From Aggregatilineales bacterium (GTDB lineage: Bacteria > Chloroflexota > Anaerolineae > Aggregatilineales > Phototrophicaceae), in NCBI GenBank assembly GCA_030834905.1, contig JAUQWZ010000042.1, positions 1 through 64,000 on the forward strand: 64,000 nucleotides of DNA, in the 5' to 3' direction. The translations under genes were made by a program, and so were the position numbers. Under the pieces are notes generated by a model, which was given only the letters and a program-made list of their open reading frames with translations, ran no database searches and had not been told where the DNA came from. Shown piece by piece: positions 33,961 through 47,915 of this stretch (positions are counted from its first letter, which is position 1; each line of letters opens with the position of its first letter).

Positions 33961-34164
33961 TAGATATTCTCCTAAGTAGTAAAAAGACAGATTAACAATC
34001 CTTAACAAACAATCGGTGTATGTTAACACATCTTTCCAATATGGGGGGTAATTCGGAAGACGATGCGTAAGATACGCGGTGATTTGTTACATTTGGCACT
34101 TTGTGCCAGATTTCCCAAGCCGTAGCATAAGAGTAGAGGCAAAAGTCGCGCGCGCCGTGAAGCA

Positions 34165-34224: not shown

Positions 34225-34263
34225 TTGTGAAAAGTTGCACAATAGGTCAGATCAGAATATACT
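34225..34263 (+). promoter_or_regulatory. Candidate promoter with Rex-like operator overlapping -35
   Basis: TTGTGAAAAGTTGCACAA (34225-34242); TTGCAC (34235-34240), 17 bp, TATACT (34258-34263). Confidence 0.65.
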
Positions 34264-34340
34264 CTGGATAGTACTTTGAGGAATGAGAGTGAGATGCCGC
34301 AGATGACCTAGTGCTAACACCATAGTTAAAGGAAGTCTTT

Positions 34341-35528
34341 ATGGTTAAGATATCTAGACGGGAGGGCAGGGCAGCGCAACTCATCGAACACCATGACTTC
34401 CAGAGTTTGTTCGATGTTCTTAAAGCCAAGAAGTACAGGCTGATTGGTCCCACGGTACGCGACGGTTCGGTCGTGTATGACGAAGTAGCCAGGGTCGATG
34501 ATCTTCCTGTTGGATACTCAGATGAACAGGAAAAGGGCAGCTATCGTCTGAATAAATCGGACGATCACAGGCTGTTTGGCTATGGAGTTGGTCCCCATTC
34601 ATGGAAAAAATTTCTCTTTCCCCCAGCCGTCCGGCTCTGGCAAGCTCGGCGCGATGACGGCAGCTTTCAGATTATTCCAGAAGACTATCATGCTGAACCA
34701 CTGGCACTCATTGGCGTCCGCGCCTGCGAGCTAAATGCCATCGCCATACAGGATCGGGTTTTCCTAGATGGCGAGTATCGTGACCCAATTTACGCGGCAC
34801 AGCGCGAGAAGCTGTTTGTGCTGGCGGTGAACTGCGGACAGGCAGGAAATACCTGCTTCTGCGCTTCGATGCACGCTGGACCCAGGGTTACGGGGCAGTT
34901 TGATCTGGCAGTGACCGAGGTTATCAACGGCGAAAGTCACTATTTCACGGTGGAAGTAGGCAGTCCCCGGGGCGAAGAAGTGCTCAGCGAGGTTCCACAC
35001 CGCCCGGCATCTGGCGAAGAAAAGGCGCTCGCCAACCAGATCATCACCCAGACCGCCGCCAGCATGAAGCGGTCAATCGATACGCGCGGCATTAAGCAGC
35101 GCCTGTATGCCAGTTTTGAGCACCCGCAGTGGGATGACATTGCGGCGCGCTGTCTTGCCTGCGGCAACTGTACCCAGGTGTGTCCGACCTGCTTCTGCAG
35201 CACTGTTGAAGACGTGACTGACCTGTCGGGGAACACCGCTGATCGCTGGCGAAAATGGGATTCCTGCTTCACAACCGATTTCTCCTATATTGTCGGCGGC
35301 AGTATCCGTTCCTCGGTGAAGTCGCGCTATCGGCAGTGGATGACCCACAAGCTGGCAACCTGGATCGAACAATTTGGGACGTCGGGCTGCGTGGGCTGTG
35401 GGCGCTGCATTACCTGGTGCCCGGTTGGAATCGACATCACTGAGGAAATAGCAGCGCTGCGCGCCGAAAAACAACCCGCCACGGCAGTGGAAGCGGCGAA
35501 GGAGGACGTTTCGTATGCTGATGTCTGA
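34341..35528 (+). CDS. hydB: Group-3b-type hydrogenase / sulfhydrogenase beta subunit, 4Fe-4S
   Basis: [25 protein letters not shown] and [17 protein letters not shown] cluster motifs; first gene of a hydrogenase operon; RBS AAAGGAAG. Confidence 0.88.
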
Positions 35529-36393
35529 CGCGCCTTCGATCACAGCACCCACAGCATCGGACAGAATATCTGACCCGATGCTGCCAAGTCCGTATCGTGT
35601 CCAGCGCGCGCGCTGGGATACCGACGATACCTTTTCGCTCGAACTGGTGCCGCTGGACAGCGACGATATTCCGCATTTCGCTCCCGGACAATTCAACATG
35701 GTGTACGTCTATGGAGTGGGCGAAATTCCGATCTCCATCAGCGGCGATCCAACCCGGCGCGATCTGCTGGTGCATACGACCCGCGCCGTTGGTACCGTTA
35801 CGCGGGCGATGAGCAAGCTCAGAGTAGAGGATATGCTCGCCGCCCGGGGACCATATGGCACCGCCTGGCCCGTCGCGGAAGCCCACCAGAAAGACATCGT
35901 CATTGTGGCGGGGGGCATTGGTCTGGCACCGCTTCGTCCGGCGATGTATCACATCATGGCGCATCGTGAACAGTACGGGCGCGTCGTGCTGCTCTACGGC
36001 GCGCGCACTCCCGGCGATGTGTTGTATCGCAAGCAGCTTGAACAATGGCGCGCCCATTTTGACCTTGACGTGTTCGTGACAGTTGACCGGGCGACTGGCA
36101 GTTGGCGCGGGAGCGTTGGCTTGGTGACGTCACTGATCGGGCGCGCGCCGTTCGATCCCCTGAACACGGTTGCCCTGGTCTGCGGTCCCGAAGTCATGAT
36201 GCGTTTCACGACCATGGGGCTGGAGAAGCGCGGCGTCGATACGAAGAATATCTATGTATCGCTGGAACGAAACATGAAGTGCGCGATTCGCCTGTGCGGG
36301 CATTGTCAGTTTGGTTCGACGTTTGTCTGCAAGGATGGTCCCGTCTTCCGCTACAGCCAGGTTCAGTCTCTGCTGACCAAATGGGAAGTGTAG
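35515..36393 (+). CDS. hydG: Hydrogenase gamma subunit, FAD/NAD(P)-binding oxidoreductase
   Basis: Ferredoxin-reductase-like fold ([34 protein letters not shown]) with C-terminal Cys-rich [23 protein letters not shown]. Confidence 0.9.
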
Positions 36394-36403
36394 GAGGCGC
36401 GCC

Positions 36404-37183
36404 ATGCAGCGAAAAAACAAACCAACACTTGCCGTCTGGAAGTTCGCTTCCTGCGATGGCTGCCAGTTGAGCCTGCTTGATTGCGAAGATGAGCTGCTCG
36501 CCATCATTGACAGGATTGATATCGCCTATTTTCCCGAAGCGACGCGCACAGTGCTCAAGGGTCCTTACGACGTCTCGCTGGTGGAGGGATCGATTACAAC
36601 CCAGCACGACGCCGAACGCATCCATCGTGTCCGGCGGGCGTCGAAGGTTTTGATCACCATTGGCGCTTGCGCCACCGCCGGAGGCATTCAGGCGCTGCGC
36701 AATTTTGCGGACGTTAAGCAGCTTGTGCCGATGGTGTATGCCAGCCCGAAATACATCGAAACGCTGAACAAAAGCACGCCCATTTCTGATCATGTATTCG
36801 TGGATTTTGAGCTGCGCGGCTGCCCGATCAACAAGGGGCAGCTTCTGGAGGTGCTGTCGGCGTATTTACACGGACGCAAGCCGAATACATCCCGGTACAG
36901 CGTGTGTATGGAGTGCAAGCGGAACGGAACGCCATGCGTGATGGTTGCGCAGGGAACCCCCTGTCTCGGTCCGGTGACGCAGGCGGGCTGCGGCGCGATC
37001 TGCCCGCTGTTCCAGCGCGGCTGCTACGGCTGCTTTGGTCCGGCGGAGGTGGCGAACACCCGCGCTCTGAGTGAACAGTGGAAGGCACTGGGCAAAACGC
37101 CCCAGGACGTCATGCGTGCTTTCCGCACCTATAACGCTTACGCCGAGGCGTTCCGTAAGGAGAGCGATATTCATGGAGCCTAA
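36404..37183 (+). CDS. hydD: [NiFe] hydrogenase small (delta) subunit, group-3b type
   Basis: [50 protein letters not shown] and C-terminal Fe-S cysteines. Confidence 0.92.
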
Positions 37184-38504
37184 AACTGCCACCAAAAGAA
37201 CACGGACACGAACCCTGAAGGTCGATGTTCTGGCGCGGGTGGAAGGCGAAGGGGCGCTGTACGCCAGGATCAAGGATCGGGATGTAACCGACGTTCAGTT
37301 CAGGATTTTTGAGCCGCCGCGCATGTTTGAAGCGCTGCTGCGCGGGCGCGCCTACAGCGAAGCGCCGGATATCACGGCGCGGATCTGCGGGATTTGCCCG
37401 GTGGCGTATCAGATGAGCGCCGTTCACGCCATCGAGAATGCTTTTGGGGTTGAGATCGATCCGGCTGTCCGCAGCTTGCGGCGGCTGCTCTACTGCGCTG
37501 AATGGATCGAGAGCCATGCGCTCCATATTTACATGCTTCATGCCCCCGACTTTCTGGGATATCCCGATGCGATTGAGCTTGCGCGGGACAACCCCGACGC
37601 GGTGAAACGGGGATTAAGGCTGAAAAAGGTCGGTAATGACCTGATGCGGCTGCTGGGCGGCAGGGAAATCCATCCCATTAATGTGCGGGTTGGGGGCTTC
37701 TATCGCGCCCCGACGAAATCTGAATTGGCGGCGATGGTGGATTCGCTGAAATGGGCGCGTGATGCGGCAGTTGAAACGGCGCGATGGGTAGGTGGGCTGC
37801 CGTTTCCTGCGGCTGCCTATGACTATGAGTTTGTGGCGCTGCATCACCCGGATGAATACGCCTTGAACGAGGGGAGGATCGTTTCCAGCAGGGGACTTAA
37901 CATCGCTATCGAAGAATACGAAGATCACTTTGCTGAAGAACATCTAGCCCATTCAAACGCGCTGCACTCTTATCACAAAGGGCGTGACGCATATTCCGTG
38001 GGCCCGCTGGCTCGCTACAGCCTGAACTATGAGCAGCTTACCCCTCTTGCGAAGGAAGCTGCCCGAAGCGGCGGGATTGATTCGACTTGCAACAACCCGT
38101 TCCAGAGCATTGTCGTGCGTGCTGTTGAAACGGTCTACGCCTGCGATCACGCGCTTCAGATCATCGAAGCCTACGAGCCACCCGCCCAGCCGGCAGCGGT
38201 TGTGCGAACCCGTAGTGGGACAGGCTGCGGCTGTACCGAAGCGCCGCGCGGGATACTCTACCATCGTTATCGTCTTGATGAGGCGGGAACTATCCTCGAC
38301 GCCAAACTCGTCCCTCCCACCGCGCAGAATCAGAAGGTGATTGAAGGCGATTTGCGCCGCTGCCTCGAGACGAACCTTGATCTTCCTGACGAGCAGCTCA
38401 CGATGCAGTGTGAACAGGTGATCCGCAATTATGACCCGTGTATTTCCTGTGCCACCCACTTCCTGACGCTGCACATCGAACGCGACGAACGGAGGGGACT
38501 ATGA
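37173..38504 (+). CDS. hydA: [NiFe] hydrogenase large (alpha) subunit, group-3b type
   Basis: L1 motif [19 protein letters not shown] and L2 motif DPCISCATH, followed by a 14-residue C-terminal extension. Confidence 0.95.
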
Positions 38505-38911
38505 ACGCCACCGTTGCCAAGCCGCTTGGCTTGCGCATGATAATTAACGATCAATTTGAGACGGCTTACGGACGTGTGCTCACCGCCTTGAAAGCCGCCG
38601 GATTTGAGATCATCACTGAGGTGAATGTACGCGACTTAACGGGTCAGCGGGCGCAGTGGCACAGCCAGCTTAACAAGTTGATTGTCGTCTGCCATCCCGA
38701 TCTTGTCCAGCGCGCCCTGATCGTTTCGCCAGAGGCGGGCGTCCTGCTGACGTGCAACGTCGGGGTGCTTGAGATTCTGGATAATCAGGTCGAAGTGGTG
38801 ATCGCCGATTTGCTAACGGCGAAGGGCGAGCTATATGAGCCGCACCTGAAATCTATCGCCGATGAACTTCTTTCTCGTATGCGCTGCGTTATTGATGCGT
38901 TGAAAAAATAG
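38501..38911 (+). CDS. DUF302-like protein within the hydrogenase operon
   Basis: ATGA overlap with hydA; DUF302-like pattern ([25 protein letters not shown]...[21 protein letters not shown]...). Confidence 0.7.
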
Positions 38912-38917
38912 ATGAGG

Positions 38918-38939
38918 GGGTGGGAGAACCCTCCCACCC
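38918..38939 (+). promoter_or_regulatory. Intercistronic stem-loop between the two hydrogenase modules
   Basis: Perfect GGGTGGGAG-AACC-CTCCCACCC stem-loop, no T-tract. Confidence 0.75.
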
Positions 38940-38952
38940 GTTACTGATTGGA

Positions 38953-39531
38953 ATGGTTGAAGATTTCGCTAAAGCCGAACCCGTTCTGTCGAAGACGGTA
39001 TTGATCATCGGAATCGGCAATGAGTATCGCGGCGACGATGCGGCGGGAATCCGGGTTGTCCGGCTCATCCGCGCGCGCGCGCTCCCGCTGCCAGTGGTTG
39101 AACTCTCCGACGAGGGGACGGCGCTGATGGATCTGTGGCGGTGTTCCAATGCGCAGGTCGTCTTCGTAATCGATGCTATGCTTTCCGGCGCTGCGCCGGG
39201 CTGCGTTCGACGTTTTGAGGCGCACGCCAAGCCACTGCCTACCCATTTCGGTGCTAATTCCTCACACCTGTTTGGAGTCGCCTCGGCTGTCGAGATGGCG
39301 CGGGTGCTTGGCTGCCTGCCGCCGCAGATGATCGTCTATGGAATCGAAGCTAAATCGTTCGACTATGCTGCTGATCTATCGCCTGAGGTAGAGGCGGCGA
39401 CGCGGATGGTGGCGGAGCGCATCTACATGGAATGCCAGATGTTTGCCGAAGCTGCCGATCAGTCAGCAGTTCCGGCGGTGACGGTGCTCCGTTCGCTGTT
39501 TCTAAATGGGGGTCAAGAGCCTGATGCTTGA
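38953..39531 (+). CDS. Hydrogenase maturation protease (HyaD/HycI family)
   Basis: VLIIGIGNEYRGDDAAGIRVVRLI and VFVIDAML. Start assigned to ATG 38953. Confidence 0.88.
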   Translation: MVEDFAKAEPVLSKTVLIIGIGNEYRGDDAAGIRVVRLIRARALPLPVVELSDEGTALMDLWRCSNAQVVFVIDAMLSGAAPGCVRRFEAHAKPLPTHFGANSSHLFGVASAVEMARVLGCLPPQMIVYGIEAKSFDYAADLSPEVEAATRMVAERIYMECQMFAEAADQSAVPAVTVLRSLFLNGGQEPDA

Positions 39532-40087
39532 GATAGCGCTGGTCTTCGGAATGCTGCTGTGCGCGGTGATGGTGATTCGGGCAGGGCGATTGCTGGCGGC
39601 GGCATTGTGGCTGGCGGGAGTCAGCGTCTTTACTGCGATGCTGCTCTATCGCCTCGGCGCCATCGAAGTCGCCGTCATCGAACTGAGCGTTGGCGCGGGA
39701 CTGGTGACGGTGCTGTTTGTCTTCGCCATCAGCGTCGCCGGTGACCAGGGCATGAAAGTGCCTTCCAGCGTGCCTAAGCCGCTGGCGTGGGGGCTGCTGG
39801 CATTCGCGCTGGTGCTGCTTCTCTATCTGACCTTGCCGCCGCCGGAAGTCTCAGCAATGCGGGCTGAAGCCGCGTTTACCGAAACGCTCTGGCAGGGGCG
39901 GGCGCTGGACGTATTGGTGCAGATCGTGATGATTTTCTCCGGCGTTCTTGGATTTGTCGGTTTGCTCTCCGAGTCAAAATCGGAGCAGATGGCGGCAGTA
40001 GTCGCGCTGGCAGAAGCGGAACCCGAACCGCCAGCCGAAGCAGCAGTCACTGAAGCCGATGCGCTGCTGGAACAGGAGCCTGTATGA
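39524..40087 (+). CDS. Membrane subunit, NuoJ / Mrp-Mbh DUF4040-like
   Basis: Hydrophobic; GAIEVAVIELSVGAGLVTVLFVFAISVAGD matches the Mrp/Mbh/NuoJ pattern. Confidence 0.7.
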   Translation: MLEIALVFGMLLCAVMVIRAGRLLAAALWLAGVSVFTAMLLYRLGAIEVAVIELSVGAGLVTVLFVFAISVAGDQGMKVPSSVPKPLAWGLLAFALVLLLYLTLPPPEVSAMRAEAAFTETLWQGRALDVLVQIVMIFSGVLGFVGLLSESKSEQMAAVVALAEAEPEPPAEAAVTEADALLEQEPV

Positions 40088-40383
40088 CGACGGTGCTGGT
40101 GGTTGGCGTGTTCGGTCTGGTCGCGATTGGGTTGTACGGGCTGCTGATCGTCCGCAATCTGATCAAGATCGTCATCGCCCTGCAATTATTGACCAAGGCG
40201 GCAGCGCTGGCGATGGTAGTCGCCGGGCAGGTCAGCGGGCAGGTTAATCTGGGGCAAAGCCTGGCGCTGACCGTCATCGTCGCCGATACGATTGTTGCCG
40301 TGGTGGGGCTGGCGCTTGCCGTACAGGTACGGCGGCGTTTTGGCACCCTCGATGTCAGGCAGCTTTCGACACAGAAAAGGTGA
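40084..40383 (+). CDS. NuoK/MrpC-like membrane subunit
   Basis: 99 aa, 3 TM: GLYGLLIVRNLIKIVIALQLLTKAAALAMV...QSLALTVIVADTIVAVVGLALAV. Confidence 0.85.
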   Translation: MTTVLVVGVFGLVAIGLYGLLIVRNLIKIVIALQLLTKAAALAMVVAGQVSGQVNLGQSLALTVIVADTIVAVVGLALAVQVRRRFGTLDVRQLSTQKR

Positions 40384-40387
40384 AATT

Positions 40388-42130
40388 ATGGCTGGGGCGC
40401 TGAGTCTGCTTGTCATCCTTTTTCCCTGGACGGGCGCGGTTATCGTGGCGCTGGCAGCCCGCCGGAACCCACGATGGCTGCACCTGCTGGCGGCTGTTTT
40501 TGCTGCTGCCGCCGCGGCTGCCGGGCTGGGGCTGCTGTTCTACACTGGCGACGCGCCAGCGGTGACCCTGTCGCTGGGCGGCGCTTTTGGCGATTTCACC
40601 CTCGTGCCGGATGGTTTGGGCGCATTCCTGGCGGCAGTCGCAGTGGTCATCGGCAGTCTGGCGGTGATCTTCTCGGCGGATTACATGCGCGGTGAAGCAC
40701 AGCTTGGGCGCTACTACTTTCTGGTGCTGCTGTTCATCGGCTCGATGTGCGGGCTGGTGCTGTCCGGCAGTCTGCTGCTGATGTTCATCTTCTGGGAGAT
40801 GACGGCGCTTTGCTCTTACGCGCTGATCTCGTTCTATAACGATGATCCGAAAGCGGTCGCGGGCGGCATCAAGGCGCTGGTCATCACTCAGTTCGGTGGG
40901 GTGGGCTTGATGATAGGCGTGCTGGTCACGCGCGCGGCGCTGGGCAGCGATTCGGTATCGGCGCTGCTGAACGGCGCGGACAGCCTGCCGCCGGAACTGC
41001 TGAGCCTGATCGCCTTTGGCTTCCTGATCGCCGCCGCCGCGAAATCGGCGCAGGTGCCGTTTCACACCTGGCTGCCGGGCGCAATGGAAGCGCCAACGCC
41101 GGTGAGCGCTCTCATTCACGCGGCGACGATGGTCAACGCTGGCGTCTACCTGCTGGCGCGGTTTTATCCGGCATTCGCGGGCGTACCGGGTTGGACAACG
41201 GCGGTAGTTGCCGTCGGGATGCTGACCGCGCTGATGGGCGCGCTGATGGCGCTGACGTCAGACGATCTCAAACGGGTGCTTGCCTATTCGACCATCAGCC
41301 AGCTTGGATACATGTTTTACGCTATCGGCGTCGGCGCGGTCTTCGCCAGCCAGTTTCACCTGCTCAGCCACGCGGTCTTTAAGGCGCTGCTGTTTCTGGG
41401 TGCGGGCGCGGTCATCCACGCCGTTGGCACGCGCGATATGCGGCAGATGGGCGGTTTGGGTTCGCAAATGCCGTTTGTTCGCGGCGTCTTCATCATCGGC
41501 GTGTGGGCGTTGGTCGGGCTGCCGTTTGCCAACGGCTTCTGGAGTAAGGAATTGATTCTTGAAGCCGGGCTGGCGGATGGTCCCGCCTGGGCGTACATCG
41601 TCATGCTGGCGGTTGCCGGGCTGACGGCGCTGTACAGCTTCCGCATGGTCTGGATGGTGTTCTTCGGCAAAGCCTGGACGGGGCGGCGTCTCCACGATGC
41701 CCCCGCCGCCATGCGCGGTTCGCTGGGGCTGCTGGCGGTTGGCACGCTGACGATCTGGCTGCTGGCGGAGCCGTTTAAGAACCTGCTCGCCAGCAGCCTG
41801 CTGCGGCATATAGGCGAGGCTGAAGGCTCAGTTTTGCTCGCCGTTCTCACCAACCCCGCCACCCTGCTGGCGCTCGGCGTGATCGCCGCCGGGCTGGCGG
41901 CGTGGTGGTGGCGAGAATCACTGACGGGCGTGGCGAACCGGCTGCGTTTTATCGCTCAGGCGGCACAGGCAGACTTTGGCTTTGAATGGTTGAACCGGCA
42001 GGTCGTGATCGTCACGCACCGAACTGCCATGACGCTGCGAACCACCCAGACCGGACAACTGAACTGGAACGCGGTGGGGATCGTCGGCGGGCTGGTAATC
42101 GTCCTGCTGGTTCTGATTGTGGGCGGATGA
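40388..42130 (+). CDS. NuoL/MrpA-type antiporter-like subunit
   Basis: FIFWEMTALCSYALISF, AKSAQVPFHTWLPGAMEAPTPVSALIHAATMVNAGVYLL, SHAVFKALLFL; conserved Glu/Lys residues present. Confidence 0.95.
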   Translation: MAGALSLLVILFPWTGAVIVALAARRNPRWLHLLAAVFAAAAAAAGLGLLFYTGDAPAVTLSLGGAFGDFTLVPDGLGAFLAAVAVVIGSLAVIFSADYMRGEAQLGRYYFLVLLFIGSMCGLVLSGSLLLMFIFWEMTALCSYALISFYNDDPKAVAGGIKALVITQFGGVGLMIGVLVTRAALGSDSVSALLNGADSLPPELLSLIAFGFLIAAAAKSAQVPFHTWLPGAMEAPTPVSALIHAATMVNAGVYLLARFYPAFAGVPGWTTAVVAVGMLTALMGALMALTSDDLKRVLAYSTISQLGYMFYAIGVGAVFASQFHLLSHAVFKALLFLGAGAVIHAVGTRDMRQMGGLGSQMPFVRGVFIIGVWALVGLPFANGFWSKELILEAGLADGPAWAYIVMLAVAGLTALYSFRMVWMVFFGKAWTGRRLHDAPAAMRGSLGLLAVGTLTIWLLAEPFKNLLASSLLRHIGEAEGSVLLAVLTNPATLLALGVIAAGLAAWWWRESLTGVANRLRFIAQAAQADFGFEWLNRQVVIVTHRTAMTLRTTQTGQLNWNAVGIVGGLVIVLLVLIVGG

Positions 42131-42131
42131 C

Positions 42132-43613
42132 ATGGACACGAGCTTACCATTGTGGTTGATCGGAATTCCCCTGGCAGCGTCGCCAGTCGTCTATCTGACC
42201 GGGCGCTTGTTGCTGGCGCGTCCTGTCATCTGCCGCTGGCTGACACTGGCAGGACTCGCCGCCGCGTGGATCGTTTTCGCGCAGGTGGCGTCCAGCTTCA
42301 GCGTGGAAGGTGATGCTGAACGCCTTATCGGTATGGTGGCGCTGCGAGTCGATGGACTCAGCCTGCTGCTGGCTGGGGTGGCGCTGACACTGGGGACGCT
42401 GGTTACGCTGTATTCCTATCACTATATGGCGGGTGAAACCGGCGAAGAAAAGTACTATGCCCTGTTGATCACGCTGATCGGTACCATGATCGGTTTAGGC
42501 TGCGCCGCCGACATTTTCAACCTCTGGGTGTGGTTCGAGGCGATGACGATCTCGACCTATCTGCTGGTCGCCTTCTACCGCCAGCAGCCAGCGTCGCTGG
42601 AAGCCGGAGTCAAATATCTGGTGCAGAGCGCCACCGGCTCGGTGTTTGTGCTGCTCGCTATTGCCCTGGTGCTGGCGCAAACCGGCACGCTCGATCTTGA
42701 CGCTATCCGCGCCGCGTCGCCTTCGCTGCCGCTGTTAGCCGCTGGGGCGCTGTTTGTTATCGGCTTTGGCGTCAAGATCGCGCTTGTCCCGCTGCACACC
42801 TGGCTGCCAGACGCGCACGGACAAGCGCCCAGCGGCATCAGCGCCATGCTGTCCGGCGTCGTCATCGAAGCCGGACTGGTCGCCCTGCTGCGAGCGCTGG
42901 GCGCGCTGGCGGGGGTTACGCTGTCGTGGGGTTGGCTGCTGATCGGCTTTGGTCTGGTCAATATGCTGGTGGGCAATCTGCTGGCGCTGCGGCAGCAGCA
43001 GGTCAAGCGGCTGCTGGCGTTTTCGAGCCTGAGCCACGTCGGCTACATGCTGCTTGGGTTGGGGATCGCCGTCTATTCAGGGCAGCCCGACGGCGCGCAG
43101 GGTGGTTTCTTCCACCTGCTCAATCATGGGCTGATGAAAGGACTCGCTTTCCTCGCTGCCGGGGCGCTGCTTTACGCGCTGCACAGCGATCATGCGCCGC
43201 TGTACCTGGCTGATCTTTCCGGCGCTGCCCGGCGCTATCCGCTGGTTGCTCTGGCGTTTAGCGCGGCGCTGCTGGGTCTAGGGGGGCTGCCGCCGCTGGC
43301 GGGGTTCATGTCCAAGTGGCAGATCTTCGTCGCCGGGGTCGATACGCAGGATGTGGCGATCACGCTGGCGGTAGCATTTGCCGCGCTGAACAGCGTGCTG
43401 TCGCTGGCGTACTACGTACCGCTGGTGAACGCGCTCTACCGCCAGAAAACATCTGCCCCCGTCGAGCGTGGGCGGGCGATACCGGTCACGATGAAACTGC
43501 CGCTGGTTCTCCTGATGATCGCGATGGTCGTGCTTGGTCTGCTGCCGACGCTGGTGAACTGGCTCACCGAACCGGCAGCGGCGGCGATGATTCGTCTGTT
43601 TGGAGGGGTGTAG
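42132..43613 (+). CDS. NuoM/NuoN/MrpD-type antiporter-like subunit
   Basis: WVWFEAMTISTYLLVAF, GVKIALVPLHTWLPDAHGQAPSGISAMLSGVVIEAGLVALLR, LNHGLMKGLAFL. Confidence 0.93.
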   Translation: MDTSLPLWLIGIPLAASPVVYLTGRLLLARPVICRWLTLAGLAAAWIVFAQVASSFSVEGDAERLIGMVALRVDGLSLLLAGVALTLGTLVTLYSYHYMAGETGEEKYYALLITLIGTMIGLGCAADIFNLWVWFEAMTISTYLLVAFYRQQPASLEAGVKYLVQSATGSVFVLLAIALVLAQTGTLDLDAIRAASPSLPLLAAGALFVIGFGVKIALVPLHTWLPDAHGQAPSGISAMLSGVVIEAGLVALLRALGALAGVTLSWGWLLIGFGLVNMLVGNLLALRQQQVKRLLAFSSLSHVGYMLLGLGIAVYSGQPDGAQGGFFHLLNHGLMKGLAFLAAGALLYALHSDHAPLYLADLSGAARRYPLVALAFSAALLGLGGLPPLAGFMSKWQIFVAGVDTQDVAITLAVAFAALNSVLSLAYYVPLVNALYRQKTSAPVERGRAIPVTMKLPLVLLMIAMVVLGLLPTLVNWLTEPAAAAMIRLFGGV

Positions 43614-43624
43614 GGAGTGTGCTG

Positions 43625-43942
43625 ATGGCTGAAATTCTGCTGTTACCGCCGGTTGCGTTCCTGCTCTATCTGGGGCTGGTGAGCATCCTGTCGCTGGTGG
43701 GGCGGGTTCTGGCGGGGACTGAGCATCCATCTTCGGAAGCGAAGACCAGCGCCTACGCCAGCGGCGAAGCAGCACCGGCTGAGATTGGCGTGCCCGGATA
43801 CCGCCCCTACTTTCTGGTGGCGCTGTTTTTCGCCACCCTGCATCTCGGGGTGCTGGTGCTTGCCACTGGTGGGACGTCGCTGGTGGCGCTGATCTATCTG
43901 ATCGGGTTGATGGTGTCGCTGCTGGCGCTGATTCTGGGGTAG
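43625..43942 (+). CDS. Small membrane subunit, NuoA-like (or MbhI-like)
   Basis: 105 aa, 3 hydrophobic segments; loop KTSAYASGEAAP resembles the NuoA YECGxxP loop; positioned between antiporter-like and NuoB-like genes. Confidence 0.65.
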   Translation: MAEILLLPPVAFLLYLGLVSILSLVGRVLAGTEHPSSEAKTSAYASGEAAPAEIGVPGYRPYFLVALFFATLHLGVLVLATGGTSLVALIYLIGLMVSLLALILG

Positions 43943-44001
43943 GACGGTAAGGAAATGGCGGTTTTCGTCTGGAGACGGAGTTTTTGATTGGGGGTGCTGG
44001 A

Positions 44002-44481
44002 ATGGCAAACAACCTGGAAGACCGATGGCAGCAGGCGCTGGAGCAGGTCAAGACCTGGGCGCGCGCCAATTCACCCTGGGCAATCCACTTCAACAGCGGT
44101 TCGTGCAACGGCTGCGACATCGAAATTCTGGCGACGCTGACGCCGCTGTATGACGTTGAGAGGCTGGGTATCAAGCTGCAAGGCAGCCCGCGCCACGCCG
44201 ACGTACTGCTCTGCACCGGACCGGTGACTCGTCAGGCGCGTGACCGGCTGCGGCGCGTCTACGAGCAGATGCCTGAGCCAAAGTTTGTGATCGCGGTTGG
44301 CTCGTGCGCGATTTCGGGCGGCGCCTTCCAGGGCTGCTATAACGTGATCGGGCATATCGACGAGGTGATCCCCGTGGACGTGTACGTGCCGGGCTGCCCC
44401 CCGCGACCAGAAGCGATCATTGATGGAGTTGCCAAACTGCTGCAGGTGCTTCAGGGAACCGAGGTGACAAAACCGCTATGA
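44002..44481 (+). CDS. Group-4 [NiFe] hydrogenase small subunit (NuoB/MbhJ-like)
   Basis: NSGSCNGCDIEILATLTPLYDVERLGIKLQGSPRHADVLLCTGPVTRQ...AVGSCAISGGAF...YVPGCPPRPEAI. Confidence 0.93.
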   Translation: MANNLEDRWQQALEQVKTWARANSPWAIHFNSGSCNGCDIEILATLTPLYDVERLGIKLQGSPRHADVLLCTGPVTRQARDRLRRVYEQMPEPKFVIAVGSCAISGGAFQGCYNVIGHIDEVIPVDVYVPGCPPRPEAIIDGVAKLLQVLQGTEVTKPL

Positions 44482-44963
44482 ACGCTGAAAGCACGCTGAC
44501 TATCGCGGCAAAACTGATCGAAGCCTGGACGGTTGAAACGAGGACGCCTGAAGCCAACCGGCTGGATGTGATGGTCGATGGGGCGCATCTGCTGGAAGCG
44601 ATCCGGGTACTGGTTGACGAGGGATGGGGTTATCTGGCGGCGATCACCGGGCTGGATACCAGCGTCGATTCGGGCGTAATGGAAGTCCTGTATCACTTCT
44701 GCGAAGGGGCTGCTGTGCTCACCCTGCGGGTGTCCGTTCCCCGTGATGGCGCTTCAGTTTCGTCCATCTGCGGCATCATTCCGGCAGCCAGTTTCTATGA
44801 GCGCGAACTGCGCGAGATGTTCGGCGTTCGCGTCGAAGGGATGCAGGGTCCCAAACACCTGATGCTGCCGGACGACTGGCCCGAAGGGCTGTATCCGCTG
44901 CGGAAGGATGCTGATCTGACAATGAAAGAGGCAGAGGCGAATGGCGACTCAAGAGAAGGGTAG
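44478..44963 (+). CDS. NuoC / 30 kDa-like subunit (MbhK-like)
   Basis: C-terminal FYERELREMFGVRVEGMQGPKHLMLPDDWPEGLYPLRKD is characteristic of complex I 30 kDa subunits. Confidence 0.93.
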   Translation: MNAESTLTIAAKLIEAWTVETRTPEANRLDVMVDGAHLLEAIRVLVDEGWGYLAAITGLDTSVDSGVMEVLYHFCEGAAVLTLRVSVPRDGASVSSICGIIPAASFYERELREMFGVRVEGMQGPKHLMLPDDWPEGLYPLRKDADLTMKEAEANGDSREG

Positions 44964-46131
44964 AAAATTCATCGTTCCGATTGGTCCGCAGCACCCGGCG
45001 CTCAAGGAGCCGGGGCACTTTGAGTTCACGGTTGACGGCGAAATCGTGACCGACGCGACAGTGCGCCTGGGCTACGTGCATCGCGGCATCGAAAAAGCGA
45101 CTGAATCGCGAAGTTGGGTGCAGAACCTGTACCTGCTGGAGCGCATCTGCGGCATCTGCTCGCACATTCACGCCTTAGCCTACTGTCTGGGTGTGGAGAA
45201 GCTGGCGGGCGTGACGGTGCCGCCGCGCGCGCAGGCAGTTCGCGTGCTGGTGGCGGAACTGGAGCGCATCCACAGCCATCTGCTGTGGGTAGGCGTCGCC
45301 GCGCACGAAGCCGGTTTCGACACGCTGTTCATGTACAGTTGGCGCGACCGTGAAACGGTGATGGATCTGCTGGAAGCGCTGACCGGCAACCGCGTGAATT
45401 ATTCGGCTAACCTGCTGGGCGGTGTGAAGATTGATGTCACCGACGAGCAAAGTGACGCGATCTGGCGCGGGCTGGACTTTCTGGAAGATCGCACGCGCCA
45501 TTACCTCGATATCACCACCAGCGACAGCGTGTTCCTGCGGCGCACGCGCGGCATCGGCGTCACCACGCCGGAACAGGCGAAAAGATTGGGGCTGGTCGGT
45601 CCCACGGCGCGGGCGTCGGGCATCTGGCACGATCTTCGCGTGGACGCGCCCTATGCAGGCTATGCAGACTACCCGATCACTATGATTGTCTCCGACACCG
45701 GCGATCTTGAAACGCGATTTGTGGTTCGCATCAAAGAGCTGTTCGAAAGCTACCGCGTGATTCGGCACATTCTCGACACCCTGCCCGACGGCGAACTGGT
45801 GACGCGCGTCCCGCGCCGCATCAAGGCGGGCGAAACCATCAGCCGGGTGGAAGCGCCGCGCGGCGAACTGTTCTATTTCATCCGAAGCAACGGGACGGAT
45901 TCGCCGGAACGCATCAAAGTGCGCACGCCGACCATGTGCAACATGGCTTCGGTGCTGGCGCTGGCAGTCGGACACCAGCTTGCCGACATGCCGATGATTT
46001 TAGTGGGCGTTGACCCGTGTTTTTCGTGCAATGACCGGACAGTGGTGGTTGATCAGGGCGGCGCGCGCGGCGGCTGGACGTGGGAGCAGCTTCGCCAGTA
46101 TGGCATTGACTATTATCGGAGGCAGCCATGA
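44941..46131 (+). CDS. Group-4 [NiFe] hydrogenase large subunit (NuoD/MbhL/EchE-like)
   Basis: Both Ni-ligand motifs present: ERICGICSHIHALAYC and DPCFSCNDR. Confidence 0.95.
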   Translation: MATQEKGRKFIVPIGPQHPALKEPGHFEFTVDGEIVTDATVRLGYVHRGIEKATESRSWVQNLYLLERICGICSHIHALAYCLGVEKLAGVTVPPRAQAVRVLVAELERIHSHLLWVGVAAHEAGFDTLFMYSWRDRETVMDLLEALTGNRVNYSANLLGGVKIDVTDEQSDAIWRGLDFLEDRTRHYLDITTSDSVFLRRTRGIGVTTPEQAKRLGLVGPTARASGIWHDLRVDAPYAGYADYPITMIVSDTGDLETRFVVRIKELFESYRVIRHILDTLPDGELVTRVPRRIKAGETISRVEAPRGELFYFIRSNGTDSPERIKVRTPTMCNMASVLALAVGHQLADMPMILVGVDPCFSCNDRTVVVDQGGARGGWTWEQLRQYGIDYYRRQP

Positions 46132-47042
46132 GTGAACTTCTGGCGCTGCTATTTTTCCCCGCTGGATTAAGTTTGCTGGCAGGCGGTCTGGTTTATGAAT
46201 GGGTAGATCGCAAGCTGGTCGCCCGGCTGCAAAACCGGATGGGTCCGCGCTGGTACCAACCGCTGGCGGATATCGTGAAACTGCTGGCGAAAGAAGAGGT
46301 TATCCCGACGGGCGTCAATAAGCTCCTGTTCGTCGGGCTGCCGATTGCAGCGCTGGCAGGCGCGCTCACGTCGGCGCTGTACGTGCCGATGTTCGGCTTG
46401 GCTCCCAGTTTCAGCTTTCCGGGCGATCTGATCGTGGCGCTTTACCTGCTCAGCCTGCTGACACTGTGTACCGGACTGGCAGGCTCGAATACCACTAACA
46501 CCTTTTCGCTGGTCGGCGCGACCCGGACGCTGACGCAGATGTTTTCGTATGAAGCGCCGTTTCTGCTGACGCTGCTTGGACCAGCACTGGCTGCCGGAAC
46601 CTGGCAGATCGGCGGGATTGACGCCTATGCCCAGAACCATCTGCTGCTGCTGACGCAGCCGATTGGTCTGCTGGTGGCGCTGATCGGTCTGATGGGCAAG
46701 CTGGAACTATCGCCGTTTGACTCGCCCGAAGCGGAGACGGAAATCGTTGCCGGGGCGCTGACCGAGTACAGCGGGCGCGGGCTGGCGTTATTTCGGTTGG
46801 GCAAAAATGTGGAGCTGGTCATCGGCTTGACGCTGGTGGCTTCGTTCTATCTCGGCGGGCTGGCAAACCCGCTTGAATTCCTGCTGAAAACCGGTGGGCT
46901 TCTGCTGGGATTATCGCTCATTCAGGCGGTCATGACCCGCTTACGCATCGATCAGACGGTAGGCATGTGGTGGCGCTATGGCGCGCTGCTGGTGCTGGCG
47001 CAGTGGCTGCTGCTGATCGTTACTCAAGGGACAGTATCATGA
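46128..47042 (+). CDS. NuoH/MbhM/EchB-like membrane subunit
   Basis: RKLVARLQNRMGPRWYQPLADIVKLLAKE and SPFDSPEAETEIVAGALTEYSGRGLALFRLGKNVELVI. Confidence 0.95.
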   Translation: MSELLALLFFPAGLSLLAGGLVYEWVDRKLVARLQNRMGPRWYQPLADIVKLLAKEEVIPTGVNKLLFVGLPIAALAGALTSALYVPMFGLAPSFSFPGDLIVALYLLSLLTLCTGLAGSNTTNTFSLVGATRTLTQMFSYEAPFLLTLLGPALAAGTWQIGGIDAYAQNHLLLLTQPIGLLVALIGLMGKLELSPFDSPEAETEIVAGALTEYSGRGLALFRLGKNVELVIGLTLVASFYLGGLANPLEFLLKTGGLLLGLSLIQAVMTRLRIDQTVGMWWRYGALLVLAQWLLLIVTQGTVS

Positions 47043-47467
47043 AATTTGGCGCAATGCTTGGCGATGTTTTCCAGTCCCTGTTCCGGCGTCCGGTGACCCG
47101 CGATTATCCGGTGGAGCGCAAGCCAGCCCCGGACAGGCTGCGGGGCAAACTGCACTGGGATCCGACTAAATGCACCGGCTGCCGCCTTTGCAGCAAGGAC
47201 TGTCCCGCCAATGCCATTGAAGTGACCATGGTGGACAAGGCGACCAAACGTATTGTGATGACGTACCACATGGATCGCTGCACGTTCTGCGCGCAGTGCG
47301 TGCGATCCTGTTCACAGAACGCGCTCGAACTCTCCAACCATGAGTGGGAACTGGCGGGAACGAACAAGGCTGAATTCACGTTGTATTACGGAGATGAGGC
47401 TGATGTCCAACAATTCCTGGACAGCCGCGCTGGAACAGACCCTAAGCTCGCTGAAGAAAAGGAATGA
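47039..47467 (+). CDS. NuoI/MbhN-like polyferredoxin subunit
   Basis: Two 4Fe-4S motifs CTGCRLCSKDCP and CTFCAQCVRSCSQ. Confidence 0.93.
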   Translation: MKFGAMLGDVFQSLFRRPVTRDYPVERKPAPDRLRGKLHWDPTKCTGCRLCSKDCPANAIEVTMVDKATKRIVMTYHMDRCTFCAQCVRSCSQNALELSNHEWELAGTNKAEFTLYYGDEADVQQFLDSRAGTDPKLAEEKE

Positions 47468-47915
47468 GCTTCCGCGCGTCGCCATTGTGGGGATCGGTCA
47501 TGAGGTTCGCGGCGACGACGCGGCTGGACTGATCGTGGCGCGAAAGCTCCGGCGAATGCTGGCACATCGGGCGCACATTTTGGTCGTCGAAGGCGGTCAT
47601 GCGCCAGAGAATTCGACCGGACCGCTGCGCCCGTTTGCGCCGGATCTGGTGCTGATGATCGATGCGGCACAACTGGACGCGCCGCCTGGAACCGTTCGCC
47701 TGCTGCCCTGGGAGCAGACGACGGGCTTGAGCGCCTCAAGCCATACGCTGCCGCCGTATATGGTCGCCAGATACATCACTATGGAACTGGGGTGCGAGGT
47801 TGCGCTGCTCGGAATTCAACCCTGCCACACAACCCTCCTGGTGGGGTTATCACCGAAGATCAAAACCACCGTCGATGATATCGTGACCCATCTGCTTGAT
47901 GCCTTGCCCGCCTGA
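47403..47915 (+). CDS. Hydrogenase maturation protease (HycI-like)
   Basis: VAIVGIGHEVRGDDAAGLIVARKLRRML and LVLMIDAAQLDAPPGTVRLL. Confidence 0.88.
   Translation: MSNNSWTAALEQTLSSLKKRNELPRVAIVGIGHEVRGDDAAGLIVARKLRRMLAHRAHILVVEGGHAPENSTGPLRPFAPDLVLMIDAAQLDAPPGTVRLLPWEQTTGLSASSHTLPPYMVARYITMELGCEVALLGIQPCHTTLLVGLSPKIKTTVDDIVTHLLDALPA

Follow-up and report, generated by a model that had tools for sequence, protein, structure and literature searches.

A predicted Rex operator in front of a dual hydrogenase operon

In the genome of a Chloroflexota bacterium, the palindrome TTGTGAAAAGTTGCACAA, an 18-mer on the forward strand, stands in front of a 13.6-kb hydrogenase operon, and Rex, a repressor that senses NADH, very probably binds there. 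This assignment is based on the recurrence of the sequence in front of the same genes in related genomes and, in addition, in front of classic Rex-controlled genes. The explanation as a whole, in which Rex would repress the operon through this operator, NADH would relieve the repression and the hydrogenases would provide an outlet for reductant as H2, is considered highly likely.

In the window (the whole stretch of 64,000 nucleotides that was analysed), the palindrome is located in an intergenic region of about 377 bp between a divergently oriented ugpB-like gene and the hydB-like gene at 34341, and the palindrome (centre 34233.5) lies 116 bp upstream of the first ATG of the operon. The Rex (ROP) operator consensus is quoted as TTGTGAA-N4-TTCACAA (PMC5317091, PMC13077300). 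The first-pass annotation had described a near-Rex palindrome with one deviating position, and this was confirmed: G replaces T at position 13 of the pattern (34237), and the inner pair of the classic consensus, A7 and T12, is present. A scan of the window with up to three mismatches to the Rex pattern yielded three matches (1.43 expected); the palindrome is the only one with fewer than three mismatches, and the other two have three each. In the whole genome (5.29 Mb), 19 places with at most two mismatches were detected (6 in the reversed control), three of them with at most one. The form TTGTGM-N6-KCACAA occurs exactly once in the genome, namely at the palindrome, and 0 times in the reversed control.

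Organization of the hydrogenase operon

The genes downstream of the palindrome were found as they had been described before, i.e. as a dual hydrogenase operon in which the genes of a group 3b-type enzyme come first and those of a membrane group 4-type enzyme second (Table 1), and they are probably all transcribed as one unit. The group 4-type module starts with an MbhD/NuoJ-like subunit, a small K-like subunit, two NuoL/M-like antiporter subunits and a small A-like subunit, and continues with NuoB, NuoC, a NuoD-like large subunit (RICGICSH...DPCFSCNDR), NuoH and NuoI. The nickel ligands (paired CxxC in RICGIC and DPCxSC) are kept in both large subunits, that of group 3b and that of group 4.

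Between hydB and hydG of relatives, a protein of about 150 amino acids resembling a cNMP-binding domain (..GWSWLFPPYRWHF..) is encoded, and this gene is clear in seven genomes (L275, L276, L279-L282, L290). It is missing in the window, where hydB and hydG overlap (35515-35528). Of 80 named loci, 19 also have a CRP/FNR-like stretch just after hydB, and most of these belong to other phyla.

Table 1. Features of the hydrogenase locus and its upstream region in the window
Feature	Position	Strand	Remarks
Imperfect inverted repeat, 35 bp, TTGTTACATTTGGCAC-TTT-GTGCCAGATTTCCCAA	34084..34118	.	16-nt arms, 3-nt spacer
Rex-type operator TTGTGAAAAGTTGCACAA (predicted)	34225..34242	+	sole exact match in genome; conservation 16/24; 22.6 bits
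Putative -35 element TTGCAC, within operator	34235..34240	+	17-bp spacing; weak as stand-alone prediction
Putative -10 element TATACT	34258..34263	+	transcription start expected near 34270
Group 3b-type hydrogenase Fe-S beta subunit (HydB/ShyB-like), first operon gene	34341..35528	+	
FAD/NAD(P)-binding gamma subunit (HydG/ShyC-like)	35515..36393	+	
Hydrogenase small (delta) subunit	36404..37183	+	
Group 3b-type [NiFe] large (alpha) subunit	37173..38504	+	RICGICPV...DPCISCATH; start deduced from MEPKTATK residue
DUF302 protein	38438..38911	+	
Hydrogenase maturation protease 1	38920..39531	+	
Group 4-type membrane module	39506..47467	+	
Hydrogenase maturation protease 2 (HycI-like), last operon gene	47340..47915	+	

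Promoter elements and sign of regulation

According to the first-pass annotation, the palindrome is embedded in the promoter of the operon. TTGCAC is indeed covered by the palindrome and lies 17 bp from TATACT, and the arrangement CACAA-N15-TA(T/C)A(C/A)T was seen again in G065 and G061, with TACAAT as -10 element. The two hexamers by themselves are no better than chance, since stand-alone sigma-70 prediction found one such pair with 0.7 expected in shuffled sequences. In another genome (G030) the palindrome abuts TATAAT, and the Rex-type sites of ndh and rex overlap or follow the -10 element. Sites that touch or neighbour promoter elements in this way are in keeping with a repressor whose repression would be relieved by NADH.

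At a low NADH/NAD+ ratio, Rex, whose gene lies in another part of the genome, would bind to the palindrome as a dimer and would block the promoter, the -35 element being inside the site. When NADH builds up, the NADH-bound Rex would leave the DNA and the 13.6-kb operon would be transcribed from a putative start near 34270. Its two hydrogenases, the group 3b-type enzyme linked to NAD(P)H and the group 4-type enzyme of the membrane, may then discharge surplus reductant as H2.

A variant of this explanation, differing only in the sign of regulation, is that Rex binds to the site and activates the operon, either fully or for one promoter. In Caldicellulosiruptor bescii, the Rex operator of the MBH operon is located 45 bp upstream of the start and less transcript was found in a rex mutant (PMC8579813); in relatives with divergent modules the operator is situated further from the hydB start. 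In the window, however, the centre of the operator is at about -36 from the expected start and the -35 element is covered, and the sites in G030 and at ndh and rex, which touch, overlap or follow the -10 element, also argue against activation. It is rather unlikely that Rex acts as an activator here, and repression relieved by NADH is the preferred reading.

Upstream of the operator, an imperfect inverted repeat is present (Table 1), the right part of which, TTGTGCCAGATTTCCCAA (34101-34118), scores 17.6 bits and thereby ranks second among the Rex-type matches of the window. The repeat could represent a second Rex site, or it could be the operator of the divergent ugp genes (ugpB).

The motif at other genes

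Similar sites were sought in the genome, and the same motif was detected at the gene of a type II NADH dehydrogenase (NDH-2, identified by solved relatives), which possesses the tandem sites TTGTGTAAGTTTACACAA and TAGTGAATATTATCACAA, the second of them overlapping TATAGT. Single sites occur at NDH-2 orthologues or paralogues in G068, G060, G040, G050, G053, G085, G028 and G132. The rex promoters of most genomes of the families f1 and f7 contain ATGNG...TTTCACAA directly after a -10-like TAATATT, which is probably a partly degenerate autoregulatory site with one conserved and one degenerate half. Furthermore, the motif is present in the intergenic region upstream of nuo in G068 and precedes HoxE/NuoE-type diaphorase genes (G068, G085, G064), the gene of cytochrome oxidase subunit II (G028, G030) and, in G068, a flavoprotein gene resembling succinate dehydrogenase/fumarate reductase. 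The motif also precedes an FprA-like NAD(P)H reductase in G040 and G047, and this genome has a weaker site there. Canonical Rex targets in these genomes share the motif, and such a set of targets is the Rex regulon profile as known from other phyla.

The half-site GCACAA, which is the source of the single mismatch in the window, is common at ndh too (C6 in 4 of 16 half-sites). In comparison to classic Rex operators, which have A at position 7, this position is looser here as far as the sequences tell (A, C or T; A accounts for 14 of the 26 half-sites at hydrogenase genes and for 12 of the 16 at ndh), and the TTGTGC half-site is frequent. The outer T1/A18 is almost invariant (25 of 26 half-sites). 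When a matrix without any hydrogenase site was applied, the window palindrome ranked first with 22.6 bits, followed by a match with 17.6 bits, and none above 17.5 bits was obtained with this non-hydrogenase matrix in 2 Mb of simulated intergenic sequence; the sites behind the matrix were gathered with the same pattern, so that the collection is not fully independent.

Beside these genes, a cytochrome P450 gene is preceded at 30-36 bp by a Rex-type palindrome, both in this genome (L015, 1501-1518, two mismatches) and in G068 (L209, 1555-1572, exact TTGTGM-N6-KCACAA). Palindromes of the TTGTGAC/TTGTGAT type also stand alongside genes of ArsR-type regulators in G053 and G040 (L220, L229); these are possibly sites of a different regulator with a similar core.

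The Rex regulator

A rex gene was sought in the genome and is present. The single bona fide Rex protein (205 aa; L001, 1489-2106) is encoded on contig 20. It reaches a score of 278 bits, over the NCBIfam Rex cut-off of 126, and its best PDB matches are all solved Rex structures. Its DNA-binding domain is canonical, with a recognition-helix region (SSAQIRKDLSHFGGFGKQG) close to that of the solved structures. The second PF06971 match of the genome (L002) was rejected as Rex, as it is a DeoR-type protein.

Within the order, Rex was detected in 105 of 108 genomes with a completeness of at least 90%. It is present in all site-bearing genomes except G054, an 85%-complete assembly in which no Rex was found. 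Only three well-assembled genomes are without a rex match, too few for motif counts with and without rex to be compared informatively; among them, G131 has 0 motif sites and G064 has three, one of which precedes a HoxE-type gene.

A sequence peculiarity was seen in the Rex proteins of four genomes of the genus g41 (L155-L158), which carry GGFLSGK just after the recognition helix, where GGFGKQG is found elsewhere. These four genomes are without the operator before the hydrogenase genes; the same applies to G025, although its Rex is normal at the GGFGKQG position.

CRP/FNR-type regulators as possible readers of the site

The first-pass annotation had left the regulator uncertain, as the site also resembles the CRP/FNR core. 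CRP sites (TGTGA-N6-TCACA) agree with the motif in spacing and core, i.e. TTGTGA-N6-TCACAA fits CRP-type regulators as well, and with TGTGA-N6-GCACA the window palindrome is also a near-consensus CRP site. Moreover, the genome contains 13 matches to the cNMP domain, and at least three proteins possess CRP-type recognition helices of the form RE..[G/N/T]R (L133 REVVGR, L130 REVINR, L135 REVVTR), which presumably read TGTGA.

The distribution of two of these regulators, L133 and L135, does not follow that of the site. When orthologues of the two were traced, the L133 type was absent from G030, where the site is exact, and the L135 type was absent from G060, G068, G142 and G030, all of which bear the site, while Rex is lacking in a single site-bearing genome only. 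The nearly fixed outer T1/A18 also favours Rex over CRP, and so do the target genes: the genes that carry the motif include rex and genes for the oxidation of NADH, and the sites coincide with promoter elements or adjoin them and do not appear to have activator spacings. The positions of the sites relative to the predicted starts vary, and they often lie over the -35 or the -10 element. FNR-type sites (TTGAT-N4-ATCAA) were not detected close to the operon in this genome. With two of the three candidates traced, it is quite improbable that a CRP/FNR-type regulator reads the site, and Rex is retained as the predicted regulator.

Conservation of the palindrome across the order

An orthologous hydB is present in 24 genomes of the order, and in these conservation was analysed by counting sites that deviate from TTGTGM-N6-KCACAA at no more than one position and are located at most 300 bp upstream. 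The palindrome was present in 16 of the 24 genomes, whereas dinucleotide shuffling, repeated 200 times, produced 0.11 on average and never more than 2. The 16 genomes include the near-identical pairs G061/G065, G040/G050 and G042/G052 and therefore represent about 13 independent cases. Since site and ATG are separated by 51 to 183 bp and the flanking sequences are unrelated, selective retention of the site rather than general similarity is indicated. A chance match of an AT-rich sequence without any regulator, which the three one-mismatch matches in the genome would by themselves hardly contradict, is ruled out by this conservation upstream of hydB and has next to no probability.

Eight genomes, above all those of the genus g41, have no palindrome within 300 bp of hydB, and in the g41 genomes as well as in G033, G053 and G044 no such site was found within 400 bp. 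Outside the order, the loci of other phyla contained no site with one mismatch or fewer within 500 bp, and only L096 showed one with two mismatches; the link between hydrogenase and site is therefore one at the level of the order.

Arrangement of the two hydrogenase modules

Three arrangements of adjacent group 3b and group 4 modules occur within the order (L283-L291, L295, L297); the most frequent is a divergent one in which the palindrome separates the modules. A single gene run comprising both is found in this genome and in G047. In G040, G050, G042, G052, G054 and G085 the modules diverge from a common palindrome-bearing intergenic region (of the group 4 module in G052, no more than the beginning was visible), and in G061, G065 and G053 the group 4 module is upstream of the 3b genes in the same orientation. 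In the stretches read of G068, G142, G030 and G028, the 3b genes have no group 4 module next to them.

Wherever the site is present, it precedes hydB in every arrangement, which suggests that both hydrogenases are governed together. It is conceivable, if somewhat doubtful, that group 3b and group 4 hydrogenases form an obligate pair in this order, with one Rex operator as their common switch, which was kept while the genes came to be arranged in three ways. If this is true, the two hydrogenases would function as a single unit under redox control; H2 might, for instance, shuttle between NAD(P)H and a membrane enzyme that pumps ions.

Comparison with known systems and implications

The predicted operator resembles Rex operators in being an 18-bp palindrome with one mismatch that lies over promoter elements and before NADH-linked redox genes, and the occurrence of the motif at ndh, nuo and, half-conserved, rex in this clade corresponds to Rex regulons. 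The statement of the first-pass annotation that Rex controls hydrogenase genes is borne out by precedents from Caldicellulosiruptor, Calderihabitans and Parageobacillus (PMC8579813, PMC7306483, PMC13077300). In Calderihabitans maritimus, Rex sites were predicted before hyd-3b and cooS2-ech1 (PMC7306483). This carboxydotroph and the window have in common that a TTGTGA-N6-TCACAA-type site precedes a [NiFe] hydrogenase of group 3b. The genes of the two groups are located in separate clusters in C. maritimus, whereas in the Anaerolineae genome they form one gene run and the site is kept across the order. In C. bescii, Rex regulates the MBH and a bifurcating hydrogenase (PMC8579813), so that hydrogenases including a membrane [NiFe] enzyme are under Rex there as is predicted here; the C. 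bescii case was tested experimentally, with MBH apparently activated, whereas the present one is predicted from sequence. In Parageobacillus, Rex is linked to the Ni-CODH/ECH (PMC13077300).

Published work already covers the control of hydrogenases by Rex, a predicted 3b case among them, and the predicted extension of this control to a new bacterial group is well supported here. No paper on a Rex regulon in Chloroflexota was found in the literature searches, the regulon survey of Ravcheev et al. 2012 being outside this comparison.

These results place the coupled [NiFe] hydrogenases of largely uncultured Anaerolineae under predicted NADH/NAD+ control. Beyond this, they provide a usable Rex motif and a first list of targets for the order, comprising ndh, nuo, hox-type, cox and hydrogenase genes. 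The timing of H2 production or use in these bacteria would thereby be tied to a measurable cellular signal.
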